Source: an uncultured Veillonellaceae bacterium
GTDB taxonomy: Bacteria > Bacillota > Negativicutes > Veillonellales > Dialisteraceae
Length of the DNA: 64,000 bases
NCBI GenBank assembly: GCA_927353735.1
Contig: CAKMIA010000004.1
Coordinates: 1-64,000 of the forward strand
Direction: 5' to 3'
In this document: positions 51,858 to 61,594 of the stretch, one piece after another
Layout of the letters: every line of letters starts with the position of its first letter
Numbering within the stretch: position 1 is the stretch's first letter
Notes under the pieces: model-generated
Database searches by the model: none
Seen by the model: the letters and a program-made list of their open reading frames with translations, nothing else
What the model was told of the DNA's origin: nothing
Made by a program: the position numbers and the translations under genes

Positions 51858-53273
51858 TTATGCTCCTTCCGGCTCTTCCCGGTCTGTCGTCTCGTAGAAG
51901 AGAGTGAACTGGCCAGCGAAATACATTTCCACAGTCCCTACCGGGCCGTTGCGGTTCTTCGCGAGGATGATCTCCGTGAGATTGCGCCGGGCGTCATCCG
52001 CTTCCAGCTCCTTATTGTAGTAGGCCTCGCGGTAGAGGAAGCTCACCATGTCCGCGTCCTGTTCGAGAGAGCCCGATTCACGCAGATCGGACAGGAACGG
52101 CCGGTGATCCTGCCGGGCCTCCACGCTTCGGGACAGCTGGGACAGGGCGATGACCGGCACATTCAGCTCGCGGGCCAGCCCCTTCAGCGAGCGGGAGATC
52201 TCGGAAATTTCCTGCTGGCGCCCTTCATTGGCGCGGCTGCTCCGGCTCTGCATGAGCTGGAGATAGTCGATGATGATGAGGTCCAGTCCCTTTTCCGCCT
52301 TGAGGCGCCGCGACTTCGACCGGATCTCCGCGGCGGTGATGCCCGACGTGTCGTCGATATAGAGCGGCGCATCCATGAGCACGCTCGCTGCATTGGCCAG
52401 ATTGGCCCATTCCTGCTGCGTGGACAGCCGCCCCGTGCGCAGCTTCTGGCTGTCGATGAGCGCCGTCGAGCAGAGCAGACGCTGCACGAGCTGGCTCCGC
52501 GGCATTTCCAGCGAGAAGAACGCCACCGATTTCTTTCCGCCGAGGGCCACGTTCTTGGCGATATTCAGGACGAACGCCGTCTTGCCCATGGACGGACGGG
52601 CGGCGACGATGATGAAGTCCCCCTTCTGGAAACCGCTGGTGAGGGCGTCGAATTTCTGATAGCCCGAGGACAGTCCCGTGATGCCCGTGCGGTTCTGGTA
52701 CTTTACATTGATATCCGACAGCTCCTGCTGCACCGCCTCGCCCAGCGAGACGAAGTCGCCCTTCCGGTCGTCCTTCGCCACCTCGAGGATGCGCCGCTCC
52801 GCGTCGTCCACGATATTGAGCGTCTCGTCCTCGCCGGCATAGGCCTCGGAGGCGATCATATTGGCCGCGTCGATGAGGCGGCGCAGCTTCGCCTTGTCCG
52901 CCACGATCTCCGCATGGCGGCGCACGGACTTCGGCAGGATGCAGTGCTCGGGAAGCTCATTGACGTAGAGCACGCCCCCCACGTCGTCCAGCCGGCCCAT
53001 GCGGCGCAGCTCCTCCGTGGTGGTGAGGATGTCCACTTCCTTCCCCTGATGGGCCAGATTGAGGATCGCCCGGAAGACGACGGCGTTCGCTTCCTTGTAG
53101 AAATCCTCCGCCCGCAGGAGATCCTCTCCCACGACCACCGCTTCCTTGTCCACCAGCATCGCGCCCAGCACGGACTGTTCCGCCTCGATGCTCTGCGGCG
53201 GGATGCGGTCTACGGCCAGCGCGCCTGCGCTGTCTGCCCGGCTCCGTCCCTGTTTCTGTCTCTCATTCGGCAC
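51858..53273 (-). CDS. dnaB: Replicative DNA helicase
   Basis: 471 residues from a GTG at 53273 with AGGGGG upstream; it overlaps lonC by 11 bases. N-terminal helical domain DRIPPQSIEAEQSVLGAMLV, linker, then RecA-like domain: SGYQKFDALTSGFQKGDFII, Walker A ARPSMGKTAF, FFSLEMPRSQLVQRLL, Walker B DLIIIDYLQLM, and ALSQLSRSVEARQDHRPFLS with the arginine finger. Unwinds DNA at the fork as a hexamer. Confidence 0.97.
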   Translation of the reverse strand: MPNERQKQGRSRADSAGALAVDRIPPQSIEAEQSVLGAMLVDKEAVVVGEDLLRAEDFYKEANAVVFRAILNLAHQGKEVDILTTTEELRRMGRLDDVGGVLYVNELPEHCILPKSVRRHAEIVADKAKLRRLIDAANMIASEAYAGEDETLNIVDDAERRILEVAKDDRKGDFVSLGEAVQQELSDINVKYQNRTGITGLSSGYQKFDALTSGFQKGDFIIVAARPSMGKTAFVLNIAKNVALGGKKSVAFFSLEMPRSQLVQRLLCSTALIDSQKLRTGRLSTQQEWANLANAASVLMDAPLYIDDTSGITAAEIRSKSRRLKAEKGLDLIIIDYLQLMQSRSSRANEGRQQEISEISRSLKGLARELNVPVIALSQLSRSVEARQDHRPFLSDLRESGSLEQDADMVSFLYREAYYNKELEADDARRNLTEIILAKNRNGPVGTVEMYFAGQFTLFYETTDREEPEGA

Positions 53274-55200
53274 CGGTATCCCCCTCTCTGACCATCAGGA
53301 TCTTCCTGATCTCCTCGATATGCTTCACCGGCACCACCTCCATGCCGAGATGGTACGGCCCGATATCATTCTTATTTTTCTCCGGGATGAGAAGCGTCTT
53401 CATCCCCGCCTGGCAGGCGCCGAAGGCTTTCTCCGCAATGCCGCCCACAGGCTTCACCTCGCCGGTGAGGGAAATCTCCCCGGTGAGCGCCACATCCTGA
53501 CGGAGCGGCACCTTCTCCACTGCAGACAGAATGGCCGACGTGATCGCACAGCCCGCGGACGGCCCGTCGATATTGCCCCCGCCGATCACATTGATGTGCA
53601 GGTCATAGTCCGACAGATCCCGGCCGAGACACATCCGCACCACCGATGCGGCGGTCGCCACGGAATCCTTCGCCATGGAGCCGGCAGTCTCATTGAAGCG
53701 GATCGAGCCCTTGCCCTTTTCATGGGCCGGATAGGCCGCTGCTTCGATCTCGATGATGCTCCCCCAGTAGCCCGCCACGCCGAGGCCGTACACATGGCCG
53801 ATGCGCGGCGTGTCCGACGCGAGCTTCTCCCGCCATGGGGAGAGCCGCGATGCCCGGGCGGTCTCCCGGATGAGCGCCTCCGTGATGACCGCGCCCTCCG
53901 TATGGCCTGCACGGTACACCGCCCGGCCGTACGCATCGGACAGCAGATTCACCGCCTTGCGCCCTTCCATGGTGTACTCGCTGATGAGCTCCGCCGCGCC
54001 GGGCTCCATCGATACGTGGAGCCGCTCCGCCGCGCCCCGCGCGATGTCCGCCACCGACTGCGGCGACAGCGGTTCAAAGAAAATTTCCGCACAGCGGGAG
54101 CGGATCGCCGGATTGATCTCCTCCGGCAGGCGCGTCGTCGCCCCGATGAGGATGAAATCCGCCGGCGCGCCCTCCTTGAACAGCTTGTGAATGTACGCCG
54201 GGATGCCCTCGTCCTCCTCGTCGTAATAGGCGGACTCGAAATACACCCGCTTGTCCTCCAGCACCTTCAGCAGCTTGTTCAGCAGGATCGGGTCCAGCTC
54301 GCCGATCTCATCGATGAAAAGCACCCCGCCGTGAGCGTCCGTCACGAGCCCCGGCTTCGGTTCCGGAATGCCCTCGTCGGCCAGATCCCGCTGCGCCCCC
54401 TGATAGATCGGGTCATGGACCGAGCCGATCAGCGGGTTCGTCATGTCCCGGCTGTCCCAGCGGAGCGTGGTGCCGTCGCATTCCACGAACGGCGCGTCGC
54501 TGCGGAAGACCGAGGTCCCCCGGCCCCGCACCGCCTCCAGCACGAGCCGCGCCGCCGTGGTCTTCCCCACGCCGGGCGGTCCGTAGAGGATCATATGCTG
54601 CGGATAAGGCGAGCCCAGCTTGGAAAGCATCGCCTCCACCGCCCGGTCCTGTCCGATGATGTCCTCCATCCGCTGCGGGCGGAGCACCTTCGTGACCGTA
54701 TCGGTGAGCTTCACCTTTTCCAGCGCCTCCAGCTTCTCCAGCCGGCGCCGCGTCTGGGGCGTCTCGATATCGGCGGTCTCCTCCTCGATGACCTCCCGGC
54801 GGATCTCGTCCACATACTCCTGATGGCGCTCCTCCAGCCGGTCGGAGATCTTCCGCTCCAGCTGCTCCTCCACGGCGCGCCGCGCCAGCAGATCCGAGAG
54901 CTTTTCCTCCAGATTGTCCAGCACCAGCGGGATCTCCTCATCCGTCGGCGGCCGGTTGTAATCCCGGCTCTCCAGGATCAGCCGCTGCATCCCGATGAGT
55001 CGCACCCGCGGATTTTCATCATGAATATATTTCAGCGCATCATACCGCCCGGTACGCACAATGAGCTCCTCCGGCCCCACCAGACTGGCATAAATGCTGT
55101 ACACCGCGTTGATCTTCCGGTTCAGATCATCCGTCACCGCTTTATCCGTATCCTGATCCCGGCGCATGAGCCGGCTCAGCAGATCCTTGATATCATCCAT
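53263..55200 (-). CDS. lonC: ATP-dependent Lon-type protease, LonC/LonB subfamily
   Basis: 645 residues. The N-terminal region is helical with coiled-coil character (residues 100-160); AAA+ domain with Walker A YGPPGVGKTT and Walker B GVLFIDEIGELD, then DFILIGATTRLPEEI; C-terminal protease domain with catalytic Ser548 (NIDGPSAGCA) and Lys591 (GGIAEKAFGA). No classical LonA substrate-binding domain is present. Cytosolic protein quality control or regulated proteolysis. Coupled to dnaB by an 11-base overlap. The usual upstream partner rplI is missing; the KAP module lies there instead. Confidence 0.88.
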   Translation of the reverse strand: MDDIKDLLSRLMRRDQDTDKAVTDDLNRKINAVYSIYASLVGPEELIVRTGRYDALKYIHDENPRVRLIGMQRLILESRDYNRPPTDEEIPLVLDNLEEKLSDLLARRAVEEQLERKISDRLEERHQEYVDEIRREVIEEETADIETPQTRRRLEKLEALEKVKLTDTVTKVLRPQRMEDIIGQDRAVEAMLSKLGSPYPQHMILYGPPGVGKTTAARLVLEAVRGRGTSVFRSDAPFVECDGTTLRWDSRDMTNPLIGSVHDPIYQGAQRDLADEGIPEPKPGLVTDAHGGVLFIDEIGELDPILLNKLLKVLEDKRVYFESAYYDEEDEGIPAYIHKLFKEGAPADFILIGATTRLPEEINPAIRSRCAEIFFEPLSPQSVADIARGAAERLHVSMEPGAAELISEYTMEGRKAVNLLSDAYGRAVYRAGHTEGAVITEALIRETARASRLSPWREKLASDTPRIGHVYGLGVAGYWGSIIEIEAAAYPAHEKGKGSIRFNETAGSMAKDSVATAASVVRMCLGRDLSDYDLHINVIGGGNIDGPSAGCAITSAILSAVEKVPLRQDVALTGEISLTGEVKPVGGIAEKAFGACQAGMKTLLIPEKNKNDIGPYHLGMEVVPVKHIEEIRKILMVREGDTGAE

Positions 55201-55211
55201 CCCAAACTCCC

Positions 55212-55279
55212 CGTCCCGGAAAGGGACGTCTCTATTTCAGGCCAATACGGCCCACATTATATATATCTGCTTTATTATA
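55212..55279 (-). promoter_or_regulatory. lonC promoter region
   Basis: Two minus-strand TATAAT hexamers (55279-55274 and 55261-55256) without clear -35 partners, and a 6-bp hairpin CGTCCC/GGGACG (55212-55228) next to the ribosome site GGGGAG. Confidence 0.4.
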
Positions 55280-55322
55280 CCCCACGCCGAAAATCTGACA
55301 TATACCGGAAAGACCGACTTTC

Positions 55323-57625
55323 TTAAATGCGCTTTCTCAGCAGACATTGTATCTTCTCATTCCTGACAGGCAGAAAATCTATCATCTCATCAAGTTCCGC
55401 TTCTGTTACCTCTGCATCATGGGCCGACGTATTCTTTTTCAAAATCTTTCTCATAAGAGCCAAATACGCTGCTGCCCTCCGAACTTCATCGGGATGCAGT
55501 TGTTGTATATCCAACGTTTCTGACAACAAATATTGTTTCACCCGGCCTACTATCTCAGGAGTTTGCAGCTGGGGTTCCATAAAATAAAAATGCCAGCTCC
55601 ATGTTGTCTTCCCATCCTCATAGCCAAATATTTTCCCCAGCATACTTATAACCAGCCAGATCAGCACGACTCCGCAGGACGATTTTTTTAGAAACTCTGA
55701 ATAGCTGTTATTCCCCGTTTTTTTATCATGCCAACGCCAAAAATACAGTAAATCTGCAATTGATTCTTCACGTAAAAGCACCTCCGGGCGTTGTGCCGTC
55801 TGGACAATTCGATTTCTCAGTGTTTGCGCCAGTTGATAAAATAATGCTTCCGGCATAAAGGGCGCCTGTACCAGTCCCGTTTCATTGCCGTAAAATCCCG
55901 GGATTCCATAGCCAGCCGTTCTCAGCATTCTCAATAAAATCGCCATTGATATCTGCGAGTTTTCAAACAGTATATTGACAGCCATTTGATCCCATTCCCC
56001 GGTTTTACAATCCTGCCACCCCTCTTCCAGCAGGGAAAAGCAAAATTTATTTCGCCAGATCTGATAACGGTAAGGGTCGATCTGATTTTTACACTGTCTG
56101 TATGCAGCTGTTACCGCTTGCATAAAAGTACGACCCGCTTCCGGATTCCGAAATTTTTCCGCCATTTCTCCTTTTTTGCTAATACCAGCTGCTTGCCGGA
56201 AAAAGGAATCAATCCTTCCTGACTGTATCAGTTGGATAAGACTATTGCATATCTGCGATGATTCCGAGCCTTTCAAGATCTCAACAACACGTTCTAATGA
56301 AACCGCCTCCCGCGGCAAAACCAGCCGGAAATAACGGTCAAAATATATCTCCTGATTGATTCTCTGCGAAACGGCACTGCCTTCTATCGGACGTTCTATC
56401 GAAGGCCACCCAGCCACATTGGCGACCTGTGGGAATAAAATTCCTAATAATTCTTTCAGATACATCTTTGTCTGCAAAGAACAGCATTCTTCCAGATTTC
56501 GTATCAACACCTCTCCTTCTTTCGAAATCTCATTTTCCAATCCTCGCATGATATCTGGTGCCAGCCAAAACTCTTTATGGTCTACCATATGACGAACCAC
56601 CGGTGATTCATACAGTTCCAGTACCGTAACTGCCAGCAAATCCCCAACATCGCAACTTTCCCCACAGGCTGTATATCGAAAAGAAAATGCATTGAGTACC
56701 CGTTCACAATCACGAATATTTTTTATATAGTTTCCGACAAGTATTTGCAGGATATCCTGCAAATGCTGCTTATCAATGCTCCCTTCAATTCGGCCCTTCA
56801 TCATACCGTTTAATCTGGCCTCCAGTATCTGGCGAAGCTGTAATAAATCCGGCTCCGGGATCGCAACAGGTACCTGTACAACTTTCTGTAAATATTCCTT
56901 GCCCTGTTCCTGCTGCACCCGATTCAATGCCCGAATCACGATATTCTTGTCATATGCCAATACATATATAATTCGTGGAAAATCTGCAATATTCTTTACC
57001 AGCTGAAAAACCAATCCTATTTGTTCGTCAGATAACCGGTCAATATCATCAATAAAAAAACGATCCACTTCTTTGAATGCTTCTGTAAATCCTTTTTCAA
57101 AAAATTCTTTTGCTGCCTGTGTTTTTGTTCCACTGATGAATGCATCATCATCTTCTGGATAGAGTCTTTTAATACCTGTGTACCGGGAATTCCATAGAAA
57201 CTTCCAAGAACTGCTCCACTATTTACTGCAATCTGGGCCGCGTTCCTTACAAATTTTTGTTGAAAACGTCTGAGCGCTTTTAACATTTTTTTATCATCCG
57301 ACATCGCCTCATTTAATGCCTCAAAGAATAACTCAATTAACGAGAAGCGATTAATAGCCAGCCAGGAATTAAACCGCTGTACCTTAAATTGTGCCGTATC
57401 CAGATGAGATTCCATCAAATTAAAAAGTGACGTCTTTCCGCTCCCCCAGGCCCCTTCTATCCCAATTACAATTCCATTCCCCCGTTCTGTTTGCATATTT
57501 GCATAATTGCGCAGCATATCCGCCAGCTGTTTGGCAAATTGTGTTCTCCCCAGTAAATCCTCTTCTTCGAAAATGATTGGTTGATCGTTTACAAATATCG
57601 TCATATCCTGTTTTTCCATTTTCAA
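55323..57625 (-). pseudogene. KAP family P-loop NTPase, split by a frameshift
   Basis: Two overlapping frames on the minus strand make up one KAP protein. The upstream part (57625-57017, TTG start) has LLGRTQFAKQLADMLRNYA and Walker A EGAWGSGKTSLFNLMESH, and ends in out-of-frame residues. The downstream part (to 55323; its first possible start is a GTG at 57068) begins DRFFIDDIDRLSDEQIGLVF, the KAP Walker B. Reading the downstream frame backwards past 57068 gives family-like sequence (DDDAFISGTKTQAAKEFFEK), so the shift lies between about 57110 and 57200; an A5 run at 57117-57126 is a candidate site. Full length would be about 765 residues. The region is markedly AT-rich (one 60-base line at 56701 has 21 G+C). 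Pseudogene, sequencing error, or frameshifted expression cannot be told apart here. Confidence 0.75.
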
Positions 57626-57732
57626 ATTTCACGGCTCCATTCCATCATGTATCATCGATAAACGCCAACAACTTATAATATTGTAAAACAGCAATTATAT
57701 ATTTAAAATAAAATTCTTTCCGATTTCTCCGT

Positions 57733-57738
57733 TATAAT
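57733..57738 (+). promoter_or_regulatory. -10 of the helicase-nuclease gene
   Basis: TATAAT 34 bases before the ATG at 57772, in an AT-rich divergent gap shared with the KAP gene. No good -35. Confidence 0.4.
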
Positions 57739-57771
57739 GGATAGAAAACCATCCCATCTCCGAGGAAAATT

Positions 57772-60288
57772 ATGAAAAACGACGATCTCTCCCATTCTTC
57801 CGGCGCCGCATTGCAGAATATGCTGAACTATCTGCGTAAAGCCGCTGCCCTGAACGAAATCCCTCAGCCCGGCATCGCCGAGGAAACGGCGCCTCCCGCC
57901 CTTTCTCCCGGGCAGATCCTTCAAAAACAATATTGGAAACTCGATCCTGCCCAGGTCGAAGAAAGCGCCGCTGCCCTCTATCTGGCGCCTCAGCTTCATC
58001 CGATCGCCCACGATCAGGAAACGCCCCTGATTTTTCCGTTCGGCATCAACGAAAGTCAGCTGGAAGCGGTCCGTCAGGCCATGACCAGCCAGCTCAGCGT
58101 CATTCAGGGGCCGCCGGGCACGGGAAAGACGCAGACCATTTTAAACATCATTGCCAATCTGCTCATGCGGGGTCTGACCGTGCAGATCGTTTCCGGGACG
58201 AATTCCGCGACGGCCAATGTACAGGAAAAGCTCTCGTCCCCGGATATCGGCCTCGCGTTCCTGACCGCCTTTCTCGGAAGCCGGCACAATAAAGAGCTGT
58301 TTATCCAGCAGCAGACCGGAAAATATCCGGATATCTCCGACTGGCAGATGGAACCGGAGCCAATGAAAAAACTGCTGGCCTCCATCGAATCACTGACGCT
58401 TGCCGTCTCTCAGACATTCGCCGCACAGAAGCGGCTGGCCCGGGCCAGAGAGGAGTACCGGGCGGTCCAGCTCGAGCAGTCTTATTTTGAAAAATTTTTG
58501 GAAGAGGAGGCCCGTCCCGTTCAGCCGGTCCGCCTCCGGTCCCGGACCCGAACAGAAGCGCTCCTCCGGCTGTGGATGGCATGCGAACTCGCCGTAGAAG
58601 AGGATCATCCGCTTTCCTTCTGGCTGAAGCTGCGGGGCCGTTTTCTCTGCGGCATCGGCAGCTGGGCATTTTATCGTCTGCCGCCGGCAGACATCATCCG
58701 TTCTCTGAAGGAGGCCTATTACCGGGTCCGGCTTCAGGAGCTGGCGCAGGAGATCGCACAGTTAACGGACGCATTGTCCCGTGCCGATATTCATGCGCTT
58801 ACAGACCGGCTCACCGCTGAGTCCCGCCGATACCTGCATGCCGTCATCTATGAACGGTTCCGGACGCGTCTTCCCCACCGGCGCCGCCAGTTTTTTTCTT
58901 CCGATCTCTCCTCTGTACGTAGCCGCAACAATTTCTGCGACGAATATCCTGTCGTTCTGAGCACCACGTTTTCTTCCCGCTCCAGTCTTCCCCATACCCT
59001 CTATGATTTTCTCATCATGGATGAAGCGTCTCAGGTCGATATTGCGAGCGGCGCGCTGGCTCTCACCGGAGCCCGCCGTGCAGTGATCGCCGGCGATACC
59101 AGACAGCTTCCCAATGTGGTGCCATCCCGGCTGCGGTGGGAGCATGAAGCACTTTTTCGCCGCTATCAGATCCCGGACGGATATTTTGCCGGTCGGGAAA
59201 GCTTCCTGAGTTCTCTCGTAAAATGTGTGCCGCAGCTGCCGCAGACGCTGCTGCGCGAGCACTACCGCTGCCATCCGGACATCATCAATTTCTGCAATCA
59301 GGAATACTACAACAATGAACTGCTCGTCATGACCGAAGCACAGGGAGAAACGGATGTCCTGCGGCTCGTGCAGACCGTCCCGGGCCATCACGGAAGACAG
59401 CACGTCAATCAGCGCCAGATCGATGTCATCCGCAGCGACGTACTGCCCGCCCTGCGTTCCGTTCCCGCAGAGGATATCGGCATCGTGTCCCCGTACCGGG
59501 ATCAGGTATACCAAATCCGGCAGCAGCTTGCAGGACCGCAGCTTCTGGCGGAAAATGTATCCACTGTCCATAAATTTCAGGGCCGTGAAAAAGACACCAT
59601 CATTATCACCACCGTGGACGATATCATCACACCTTTTTCCGATGACCCCCATCTCCTGAACGTGGCTGTCTCCCGTGCCAGGCGTCACCTGATCGTGGTC
59701 GCCTCCCCGGAGGAACAGCCGGAGGGGAGCCATGTCCGGGATCTCATGGCCTATATCCGTTATCACGGCGGCCAGCTGCTGCACAGCGACATCCGTTCCG
59801 TCTTCGATCTTCTGTACCGTCAGTATGCGGAGGAACGGCAGCAGTTCCTTGCCCGCCATACCGCGGTCTCATCGTATGTCTCGGAAAATCTGATGTACGG
59901 CCTGATCGAAGACATCCTGAAAGCCGTTCCCGAGCTTCATCTCGCGGCGGTTCCCCATGTGCCGCTTCTGGAAATATTTTCCCGTCCGCAGCGGTCTCTC
60001 CTTTCTATGGAAGAACAGGGATACATCCAAAGAGGCGCCCACGTGGATTTCCTGCTGTATCACACCATCCGGAAAATTCCTGTTTTCGCCATCGAGGTGG
60101 ACGGTTTCCGCTTTCATCAGAAAGGGACACGGCAATTTGACCGGGACCGGATGAAGGATCACATTTTTCAGACGCTCCGGCTGCCCCTGCTTCGTTTCTC
60201 AACCACCGGCAGCAATGAAGAAAAGCAGCTGCGGGACATCCTCCAGCGCTATATTCAAACGTATTTCCATGCCGACCTCAGTCATTAG
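57772..60288 (+). CDS. SF1 (Upf1-like) helicase with C-terminal Vsr/DUF2726-like nuclease domain
   Basis: 838 residues, ribosome site GAGGAA. Motif Q/I: FPFGINESQLEAVRQAM and GPPGTGKT (113-120); motif II MDEAS (416-420); motif III GDTRQLP (441-447); REHYRCHPDIINFCN; motif V STVHKFQGREKDTIII; motif VI NVAVSRARRHLIVV. The last 85 residues (Asp759 in HVDFLL, then FAIEVDGFRFH with Glu775 and Asp777, and the FDRDRMKDHIF helix) look like a PD-(D/E)XK/Vsr-type endonuclease. The DUF4011 domain found in the long Gao_Hhe defence proteins (DUF4011-helicase-Vsr) is absent. Probably acts on DNA or RNA; a defence role is inferred. Codon use here is GC-rich, unlike the adjacent KAP gene. Confidence 0.8.
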   Translation: MKNDDLSHSSGAALQNMLNYLRKAAALNEIPQPGIAEETAPPALSPGQILQKQYWKLDPAQVEESAAALYLAPQLHPIAHDQETPLIFPFGINESQLEAVRQAMTSQLSVIQGPPGTGKTQTILNIIANLLMRGLTVQIVSGTNSATANVQEKLSSPDIGLAFLTAFLGSRHNKELFIQQQTGKYPDISDWQMEPEPMKKLLASIESLTLAVSQTFAAQKRLARAREEYRAVQLEQSYFEKFLEEEARPVQPVRLRSRTRTEALLRLWMACELAVEEDHPLSFWLKLRGRFLCGIGSWAFYRLPPADIIRSLKEAYYRVRLQELAQEIAQLTDALSRADIHALTDRLTAESRRYLHAVIYERFRTRLPHRRRQFFSSDLSSVRSRNNFCDEYPVVLSTTFSSRSSLPHTLYDFLIMDEASQVDIASGALALTGARRAVIAGDTRQLPNVVPSRLRWEHEALFRRYQIPDGYFAGRESFLSSLVKCVPQLPQTLLREHYRCHPDIINFCNQEYYNNELLVMTEAQGETDVLRLVQTVPGHHGRQHVNQRQIDVIRSDVLPALRSVPAEDIGIVSPYRDQVYQIRQQLAGPQLLAENVSTVHKFQGREKDTIIITTVDDIITPFSDDPHLLNVAVSRARRHLIVVASPEEQPEGSHVRDLMAYIRYHGGQLLHSDIRSVFDLLYRQYAEERQQFLARHTAVSSYVSENLMYGLIEDILKAVPELHLAAVPHVPLLEIFSRPQRSLLSMEEQGYIQRGAHVDFLLYHTIRKIPVFAIEVDGFRFHQKGTRQFDRDRMKDHIFQTLRLPLLRFSTTGSNEEKQLRDILQRYIQTYFHADLSH

Positions 60289-60316
60289 ACCGACTCCATT
60301 TCCACCTACGACCAAT

Positions 60317-60348
60317 AAAAAAGAGAATCCCGAAGGATTCTCTTTTTT
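60317..60348. terminator. Bidirectional terminator between helicase and porin genes
   Basis: 12- to 14-bp stem AAAAGAGAATCC/GGATTCTCTTTT with loop CGAA and A/T runs on both sides. An almost identical hairpin ends the second porin gene (62104-62134). Confidence 0.85.
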
Positions 60349-60370
60349 CGTACAGGCATTTCTGAAGAAA

Positions 60371-61594
60371 TCAGAATACGTAGTTGAGGGATACGGTCCA
60401 GGTATCTTCCGGATCCGTGCTTTCTTTCGCTTCCGCGGCGAAAGCGTATTCTGCATGGAGATAGGTATTCTGTGCGAGGGTCACTTCGCCGACGGCATTC
60501 CAGAATTTGAGTTCGCCTGCCGACTTGATATCGCTCAGGATATCGGTCTGGAGACCGGTGCCGCCGAGGTATACGCCGTCGCCCACCTTATTGTAGGCCA
60601 CGTCCAGCTGCCAGGTGCCAGGTTTCTTCAGGTCTCTCATGCCGTAGCCAAGGCCTGCATTCCAGGCGGTGTCATAGTCGCCCCAGGTGGTATTCTGCCA
60701 GTATTCGCCGAATACGCGGAAATCGCTGACGGGGATCACGAGGCCCACGCCCCAGATCTCGTAATCAATGCCTTCCTTTTCCATGTTGGTGTAATAGTTG
60801 GCATAGAGATCGAAGGCGCCGAGATCGGCATTGGCCTTTGCGTAGAAGGTGTCCAGATTATCAATATCGGCCGAGGGATGACGGGAGGAATTGAACTGGC
60901 CATAGCCTACGGCTACATCGACTCTGCCCAGATCAGCTGCGAGCTGCGCGCCATCAAAGCCGTAGGAGCTGTTGTACAGCCAGCCGCCCTGATTGCCGAG
61001 GGTCATGCCGTAACGTCCGAGGGTGAGATCTACCGCGCCGAAGTCATGGTTCACATTCAGCAGTTCCATGCCCACATCCGCGTCGCTGTCGCCCTTGAAG
61101 TTCACATTGTCCGTGGACAGACGGGCATTCGCAGTGGTGCTGTCATTGATCTGGCCCTTCATATTGATGCGGACACGGCCGTTCCAGGATTCCTTATCCC
61201 CGTTGTCGTTGCTCTGATAACGCATACGGGCATCGCCGCTCCAGGAGATGTTGCCCACTTTCTTTTCCAGGTTGGACACGCGCACGCCCAGGCTGTCCAG
61301 CTCATCAGCATATTCCCCAGCGAGCTGATCGATGATGGCGCGCTGTTCCGCATTGTACTGGTCTTCCTTTGCCATCAGGCGGGCGATGATCTGAGCCATT
61401 TCATAACGGGTGATGTTCTTCTGGCCACCAAAGGTGCCGTCCGGATAGCCTGCCACGATGCCCTGTGCGGACAGATCCGCCACGGCCTTATAGGCCCAGT
61501 CTGAAGTGGACACGTCGGAGAACGGGTTTGCTGCCTGTGCAGAGACTCCGAGGGAGAGTGCCGCTGCAGCTGCCATTGCGAGAAGTTTCTTCAT
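60371..61594 (-). CDS. ompM: SLH-domain porin (OmpM type)
   Basis: 407 residues. Signal peptide to AQA-ANPF; one SLH domain (FSDVSTSDWAYKAVADLSAQ, IVAGYPDGTFGGQKNITRYE); a coiled-coil segment (QYNAEQRAIIDQLAGEYADE, LDSLGVRVSNLEKKV); then a beta-barrel of alternating strands ending SLNYVF with terminal Phe, the outer membrane assembly signal. The SLH domain should bind modified peptidoglycan, tethering the outer membrane to the wall. It forms a diffusion pore. Paralog of the gene at 62158, very similar in the first 130 residues; the barrel is about 35 residues shorter. Confidence 0.92.
   Translation of the reverse strand: MKKLLAMAAAAALSLGVSAQAANPFSDVSTSDWAYKAVADLSAQGIVAGYPDGTFGGQKNITRYEMAQIIARLMAKEDQYNAEQRAIIDQLAGEYADELDSLGVRVSNLEKKVGNISWSGDARMRYQSNDNGDKESWNGRVRINMKGQINDSTTANARLSTDNVNFKGDSDADVGMELLNVNHDFGAVDLTLGRYGMTLGNQGGWLYNSSYGFDGAQLAADLGRVDVAVGYGQFNSSRHPSADIDNLDTFYAKANADLGAFDLYANYYTNMEKEGIDYEIWGVGLVIPVSDFRVFGEYWQNTTWGDYDTAWNAGLGYGMRDLKKPGTWQLDVAYNKVGDGVYLGGTGLQTDILSDIKSAGELKFWNAVGEVTLAQNTYLHAEYAFAAEAKESTDPEDTWTVSLNYVF

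Follow-up and report, generated by a model that had tools for sequence, protein, structure and literature searches.

PifA of plasmid F is a single-gene abortive-infection factor directed against T7, and its range has been found to be narrow (PMC8594841). The KAP-type P-loop NTPase that characterizes PifA is also found in QatA, a member of a four-gene system, and in Tmn. The latter carries two transmembrane domains (PMC11846954). Among helicases, Gao_Hhe combines a helicase core with a C-terminal restriction-enzyme-fold nuclease in a protein of about 1800-1900 aa that includes DUF4011. The MkoA/MkoC proteins of Mokosh possess a UPF1-like SF1 helicase core, and the nuclease of Mokosh is of the PLD type. 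Here we compare with these systems a KAP NTPase gene and an SF1 helicase-nuclease gene that are neighbours in a 64,000-nucleotide stretch of DNA from an uncultured Veillonellaceae bacterium (hereafter the window). We assign a probability of roughly 0.8 to the reading that the interval holding them is variable cargo made up of two unrelated, individually acquired genes, with a KAP gene that is most likely inactive and a pairing that is accidental.

From left to right, the locus consists of lonC (minus strand), the KAP NTPase gene (minus), an intergenic gap, the SF1 helicase gene (plus) and two SLH-domain porin genes (minus) (Table 1). In agreement with a preliminary description of the locus, which had proposed the two central genes as a candidate defence module, the divergent genes are indeed flanked by lonC and the porins, and the KAP gene is rich in AT, with a GC of 0.39-0.43 versus 0.64 in lonC. 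The gap contains TATAAT-like sequences in both directions, as well as an AGGA ahead of the helicase ATG; a consensus scan of positions 55100-60500 returned 9 matches versus 6.8 by shuffling (sd 2.8), which is not above expectation.

Table 1. Features of the lonC-porin region, in window coordinates.
Feature	Position	Strand	Details
lonC	53263-55200	minus	
Variable interval	55226-60316		without counterpart at the same place in related genome G002 (blastn)
KAP C-terminal fragment	55323-57068	minus	581 aa, Walker B IDDIDR, no stop until 55323
KAP N-terminal fragment	57017-57625	minus	202 aa, TTG start, Walker A GAWGSGKTS intact
Join of KAP frames, net -1	57054-57060	minus	run of seven T
Intergenic gap between the divergent genes	57626-57771		146 bases, AT-rich
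SF1 UPF1/IGHMBP2-like helicase with C-terminal DUF2726 nuclease	57772-60288	plus	838 aa

In a blastn comparison with a genome of the same genus (G002), the lonC of which is 92% identical, similarity to the window is lost at two points, 55225 next to lonC (25 bases before the gene) and 60317 next to the porins. Because G002 holds different DNA between these points (13 kb), the lonC-porin interval is variable within a genus. Read by eye, the G002 interval (L068:3000-16100) contains a polysaccharide-synthesis cluster and a short transposase-fragment-like ORF. Flanking repeats and a tRNA, as signs of a mobile element, were searched for at the window locus and none were found. The proposal that rplI usually stands next to lonC holds for 20 loci, all from families other than that of the window, and fails within the window's own family, where rplI is beside lonC in none of the nine genomes in which the lonC locus was examined; the rplI of the window genome is on another contig. 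As rplI does not adjoin lonC within the family, its absence here is no mark of an insertion. The GC3 values of the KAP gene (0.43) and of the helicase gene (0.66) compare with 0.75-0.85 for core genes, and the difference between the two argues for separate origins. Both genes were probably acquired horizontally, and most likely independently of each other.

The KAP NTPase gene (55323-57625) had been taken as a single gene, but consists of two overlapping frames rather than one ORF. The N-terminal fragment matches Pfam KAP_NTPase over positions 1-149 (E 5e-18) and the PADLOC PifA profile over positions 5-188 of 720 (E 6e-28), and the C-terminal fragment matches the same profiles over positions 155-290 (E 1.7e-24) and 187-641 of 720 (E 7e-43), respectively. 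Both halves are above the PF07693 cut-off, their Walker A and Walker B motifs align with those of relatives, and together they follow the PifA profile in order over positions 5-641, such that the tie to PifA proposed at the outset is borne out along most of the length. Every -1 join across codons 150-202 of the upstream frame was scored with a profile of KAP relatives, of which seven are PifA-like and the eighth is more distant. The top-scoring join (310.6 bits) falls inside the seven-T run and yields IVF/FIDDIDRL at Walker B, giving a read-through product of 767 aa in which a hydrophobicity scan reveals one strong peak near residue 649. The single intact reading frame of PifA-like KAP NTPases is therefore lacking here, as a net -1 frameshift is located just ahead of Walker B. 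Because this shift parts Walker A from Walker B, the KAP gene is most likely inactivated.

The homopolymer frameshift may have arisen in sequencing or assembly, a point that counts against the above reading. We regard it as a tentative alternative that the organism itself carries an unbroken KAP gene; this would be compatible with the rest of the preferred reading, except for the loss of function. The shift falls within a run of seven T, no stop interrupts either frame elsewhere and the window genome is a 34-contig draft, all of which would fit such an error, whereas short-read errors are uncommon in homopolymer runs of seven. Production of the KAP protein by programmed -1 ribosomal frameshifting, or use of the T run as a phase-variation switch, is most improbable. 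Read in the upstream frame, the run gives GTT TTT TTA, which contains the canonical slippery-type heptamer T_TTT_TTA in the correct frame and exactly at the join; however, loss of a single base in a T run at the same codon phase would itself create this heptamer. RNA folding downstream of the run is no better than that of shuffles (z = 0.35) and the KAP relatives are encoded in one frame, and for these two reasons mutation or assembly error is preferred over programmed frameshifting. It is scarcely credible that the KAP gene serves as a defence switch, with the ATPase produced by only a fraction of ribosomes or cells through slippage or -1 frameshifting at the T run ahead of Walker B, and with the helicase-nuclease as its partner.

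Strong KAP matches occur in eight of the 381 genomes of the window's class, the window genome included. Full-length PifA matches of 220-285 bits are given by the relatives at L076, L077, L200, L201 and L202, and the intact PifA-like relatives span 710-742 aa in one frame; those at L203 and L204 are longer, at 877-889 aa. Most are AT-rich with respect to their surroundings (e.g. GC of 0.29 in a locus of 0.41, and 0.40 in a locus of 0.58). The relatives are stand-alone genes, four of seven being situated among other defence genes: Gabija GajA/GajB together with an RT-Toprim (DRT) gene at L077, an IetS-like and a Ppl-like gene at L200, an HKD-Snf2 helicase at L201, and a SIR2-type (LmuA-like) gene at L204. 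The L076 gene stands alone within a cobalamin-type gene cluster. A search of phage records with the KAP protein gave no match. By its PifA match and the neighbours of its relatives, the KAP gene belongs to a family plausibly tied to defence.

The window helicase is composed of AAA_11, AAA_12 and a C-terminal DUF2726 (Pfam), the same set as in its relatives; a restriction-endonuclease fold has been described for DUF2726 (PMC3710099). The protein was aligned with 3 relatives and then with 29; it retains the nuclease residues D759, E775, D777, H782 and K795 as well as the helicase motifs, and these are invariant or nearly so across the 30 aligned members, window included. An AlphaFold model (pLDDT 89) gives UPF1, SETX and IGHMBP2 as the best Foldseek matches, with Dna2 lower in the list; a single-sequence model of the nuclease domain (pLDDT 50) was too poor for use.

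The helicase starts ∼100 residues downstream of the usual family start, and the N-terminal segment is missing; in most relatives this extra sequence has a modal length of 103 residues, with 30-65 residues in a minority. It is possible, if doubtful, that the helicase is a 5′-truncated remnant resulting from the arrival of the KAP DNA and that both genes are decaying, which would be compatible with the interval being cargo of two unrelated genes. The absence of a segment found in most relatives (usually about 40-100 residues), the AT-rich character of the adjoining gap and a search upstream of the helicase that found no trace of the missing part are consistent with such a remnant. Against it, the 838 codons that remain carry no stop and keep every motif, the ATG is preceded by AGGA and a TATAAT-like sequence, and the relative at L188 (813 aa) also lacks the segment. 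At least one other such member thus exists, and the segment may not be obligatory in the family. The short form may be truncated, or else a working variant, and given the signals before its ATG the helicase may be expressible as it stands.

One genome scan returned 439 relatives of the helicase, 80 of which were kept; family members share 38-49% identity with the window protein and are distributed over Clostridia, Bacteroidales, spirochaetes and Negativicutes. The family is sporadic, mostly solitary and without a constant partner, with occasional defence neighbours. Its commonest neighbour, a Fic protein, is found at only eight of 86 loci (median distance 142 bases). At L075:11994-13109 a SoFic-like Fic protein lies directly beside an SF1-DUF2726 helicase, and seven other loci likewise have Fic. 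PADLOC matches among the 100 nearest neighbours were similar to those among 100 genes at least 6.5 kb away (6.5-10 kb), among the 25 families listed for each. As such matches are no denser beside the helicase relatives, the neighbourhood adds no weight to a defence role of the helicase. In phage records the helicase has six matches, of which one covers 61% of the query (32% identity) and the other five only shorter stretches. The family reaches no NCBIfam cut-off, and its PADLOC matches are through the helicase core only; as a sporadic family with occasional defence neighbours it is plausibly tied to defence.

Of ∼95 distinct helicase loci, each examined with up to 10 kb of flanking sequence, only L074 has a clear KAP gene, which is of the PDC-S20 subtype and lies 3.5 kb from the helicase relative; conversely, the helicase was sought at nine KAP loci and was absent from all nine. 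Upstream of the L074 helicase relative (L074:3221-8000), the PDC-S20-type KAP gene is followed, as read by eye, by DUF262-like and HEPN-like ORFs. Adjacency of the two genes was thus not observed to recur in independent genomes. The helicase family is present in about 19 of the 381 genomes of the class, and it coincides with a strong KAP match in the window genome and G375 only, on different contigs in the latter. With the window genome left out, 0.33 coincidences would be expected and one or more would arise by chance with a probability of 0.29, so that the co-occurrence is at chance level. That the genes form a true two-gene defence system, with a common divergent promoter region, KAP as the sensor of infection and the helicase-nuclease as the effector, is very unlikely on these counts: adjacency across a 146-base gap, the occurrence of both families among defence genes and the KAP of another subtype at L074 would agree with it, but the genes are not co-conserved, they differ in base composition and the KAP frame is broken. 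The divergent arrangement could still be co-regulated, which is a point against accidental pairing. Both neighbourhood and co-occurrence counts lead us to reject a shared module. The preliminary description had itself held that homologs which never occur together would speak against the module, and this is essentially what is observed; what stands of its link to defence is that each gene alone belongs to a plausible defence family. The pair provides no evidence of a new two-gene defence system and is an ordinary adjacency.

By analogy with PifA of plasmid F, the intact PifA-like relatives probably work alone: a phage product would be sensed, the KAP P-loop ATPase would then change state, and infection would be aborted. 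The conserved motifs of the helicase-nuclease suggest a stand-alone enzyme that would be loaded onto nucleic acid and move along it by ATP hydrolysis, as other UPF1-like SF1 helicases do, with cleavage carried out by its DUF2726 nuclease of restriction-enzyme fold. Phage exclusion is a putative function of either gene. As a pair, the KAP gene and the helicase matter little. The part worth keeping is the SF1-DUF2726 helicase-nucleases as a broad, sporadic and solitary family below all NCBIfam cut-offs, together with the demonstration that the lonC-porin interval varies within one genus.

Of the described systems, PifA (PADLOC PDLC02361) is matched by the window KAP protein in its KAP P-loop domain, in a near whole-length profile match over two halves and in being a single gene without a fixed partner, whereas the window gene is frameshifted and its sequence is distant. 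The likeness to QatA is confined to a weak match to a KAP-type P-loop NTPase (38.8 bits versus a cut-off of 600), and QatA differs in belonging to a four-gene system. Tmn likewise shares the KAP-type P-loop NTPase and has two transmembrane domains, where the hydrophobicity scan of the window KAP gave the single strong peak noted above. The kinship to Hhe that had been suggested for the helicase reduces to a weak match of the helicase core (57 bits with PADLOC Hhe; 83 bits versus a cut-off of 2000 with NCBIfam Hhe). Although core and C-terminal restriction-enzyme-fold nuclease are common to both, the window protein is less than half the length of Gao_Hhe and gives no DUF4011 match, and membership is rejected. 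Elsewhere in the window genome, contig C6 encodes an 1873-aa SF1 helicase (L220:3826-9444, minus strand) of low GC (0.47), which is related to PADLOC PDC-S37 (E 2e-67) and to the Hhe/ProA profiles, below NCBIfam cut-offs; it is a better Hhe-like defence candidate than the window helicase. Mokosh MkoA/MkoC provides the best PADLOC match (155 bits) through the same UPF1-like core, but as the match is confined to that core and DUF2726 occupies the C terminus in place of a PLD-type nuclease, membership is again rejected. Dna2, IGHMBP2 and UPF1 resemble the window helicase in helicase-core fold and sequence, and differ in that its nuclease is arranged differently.
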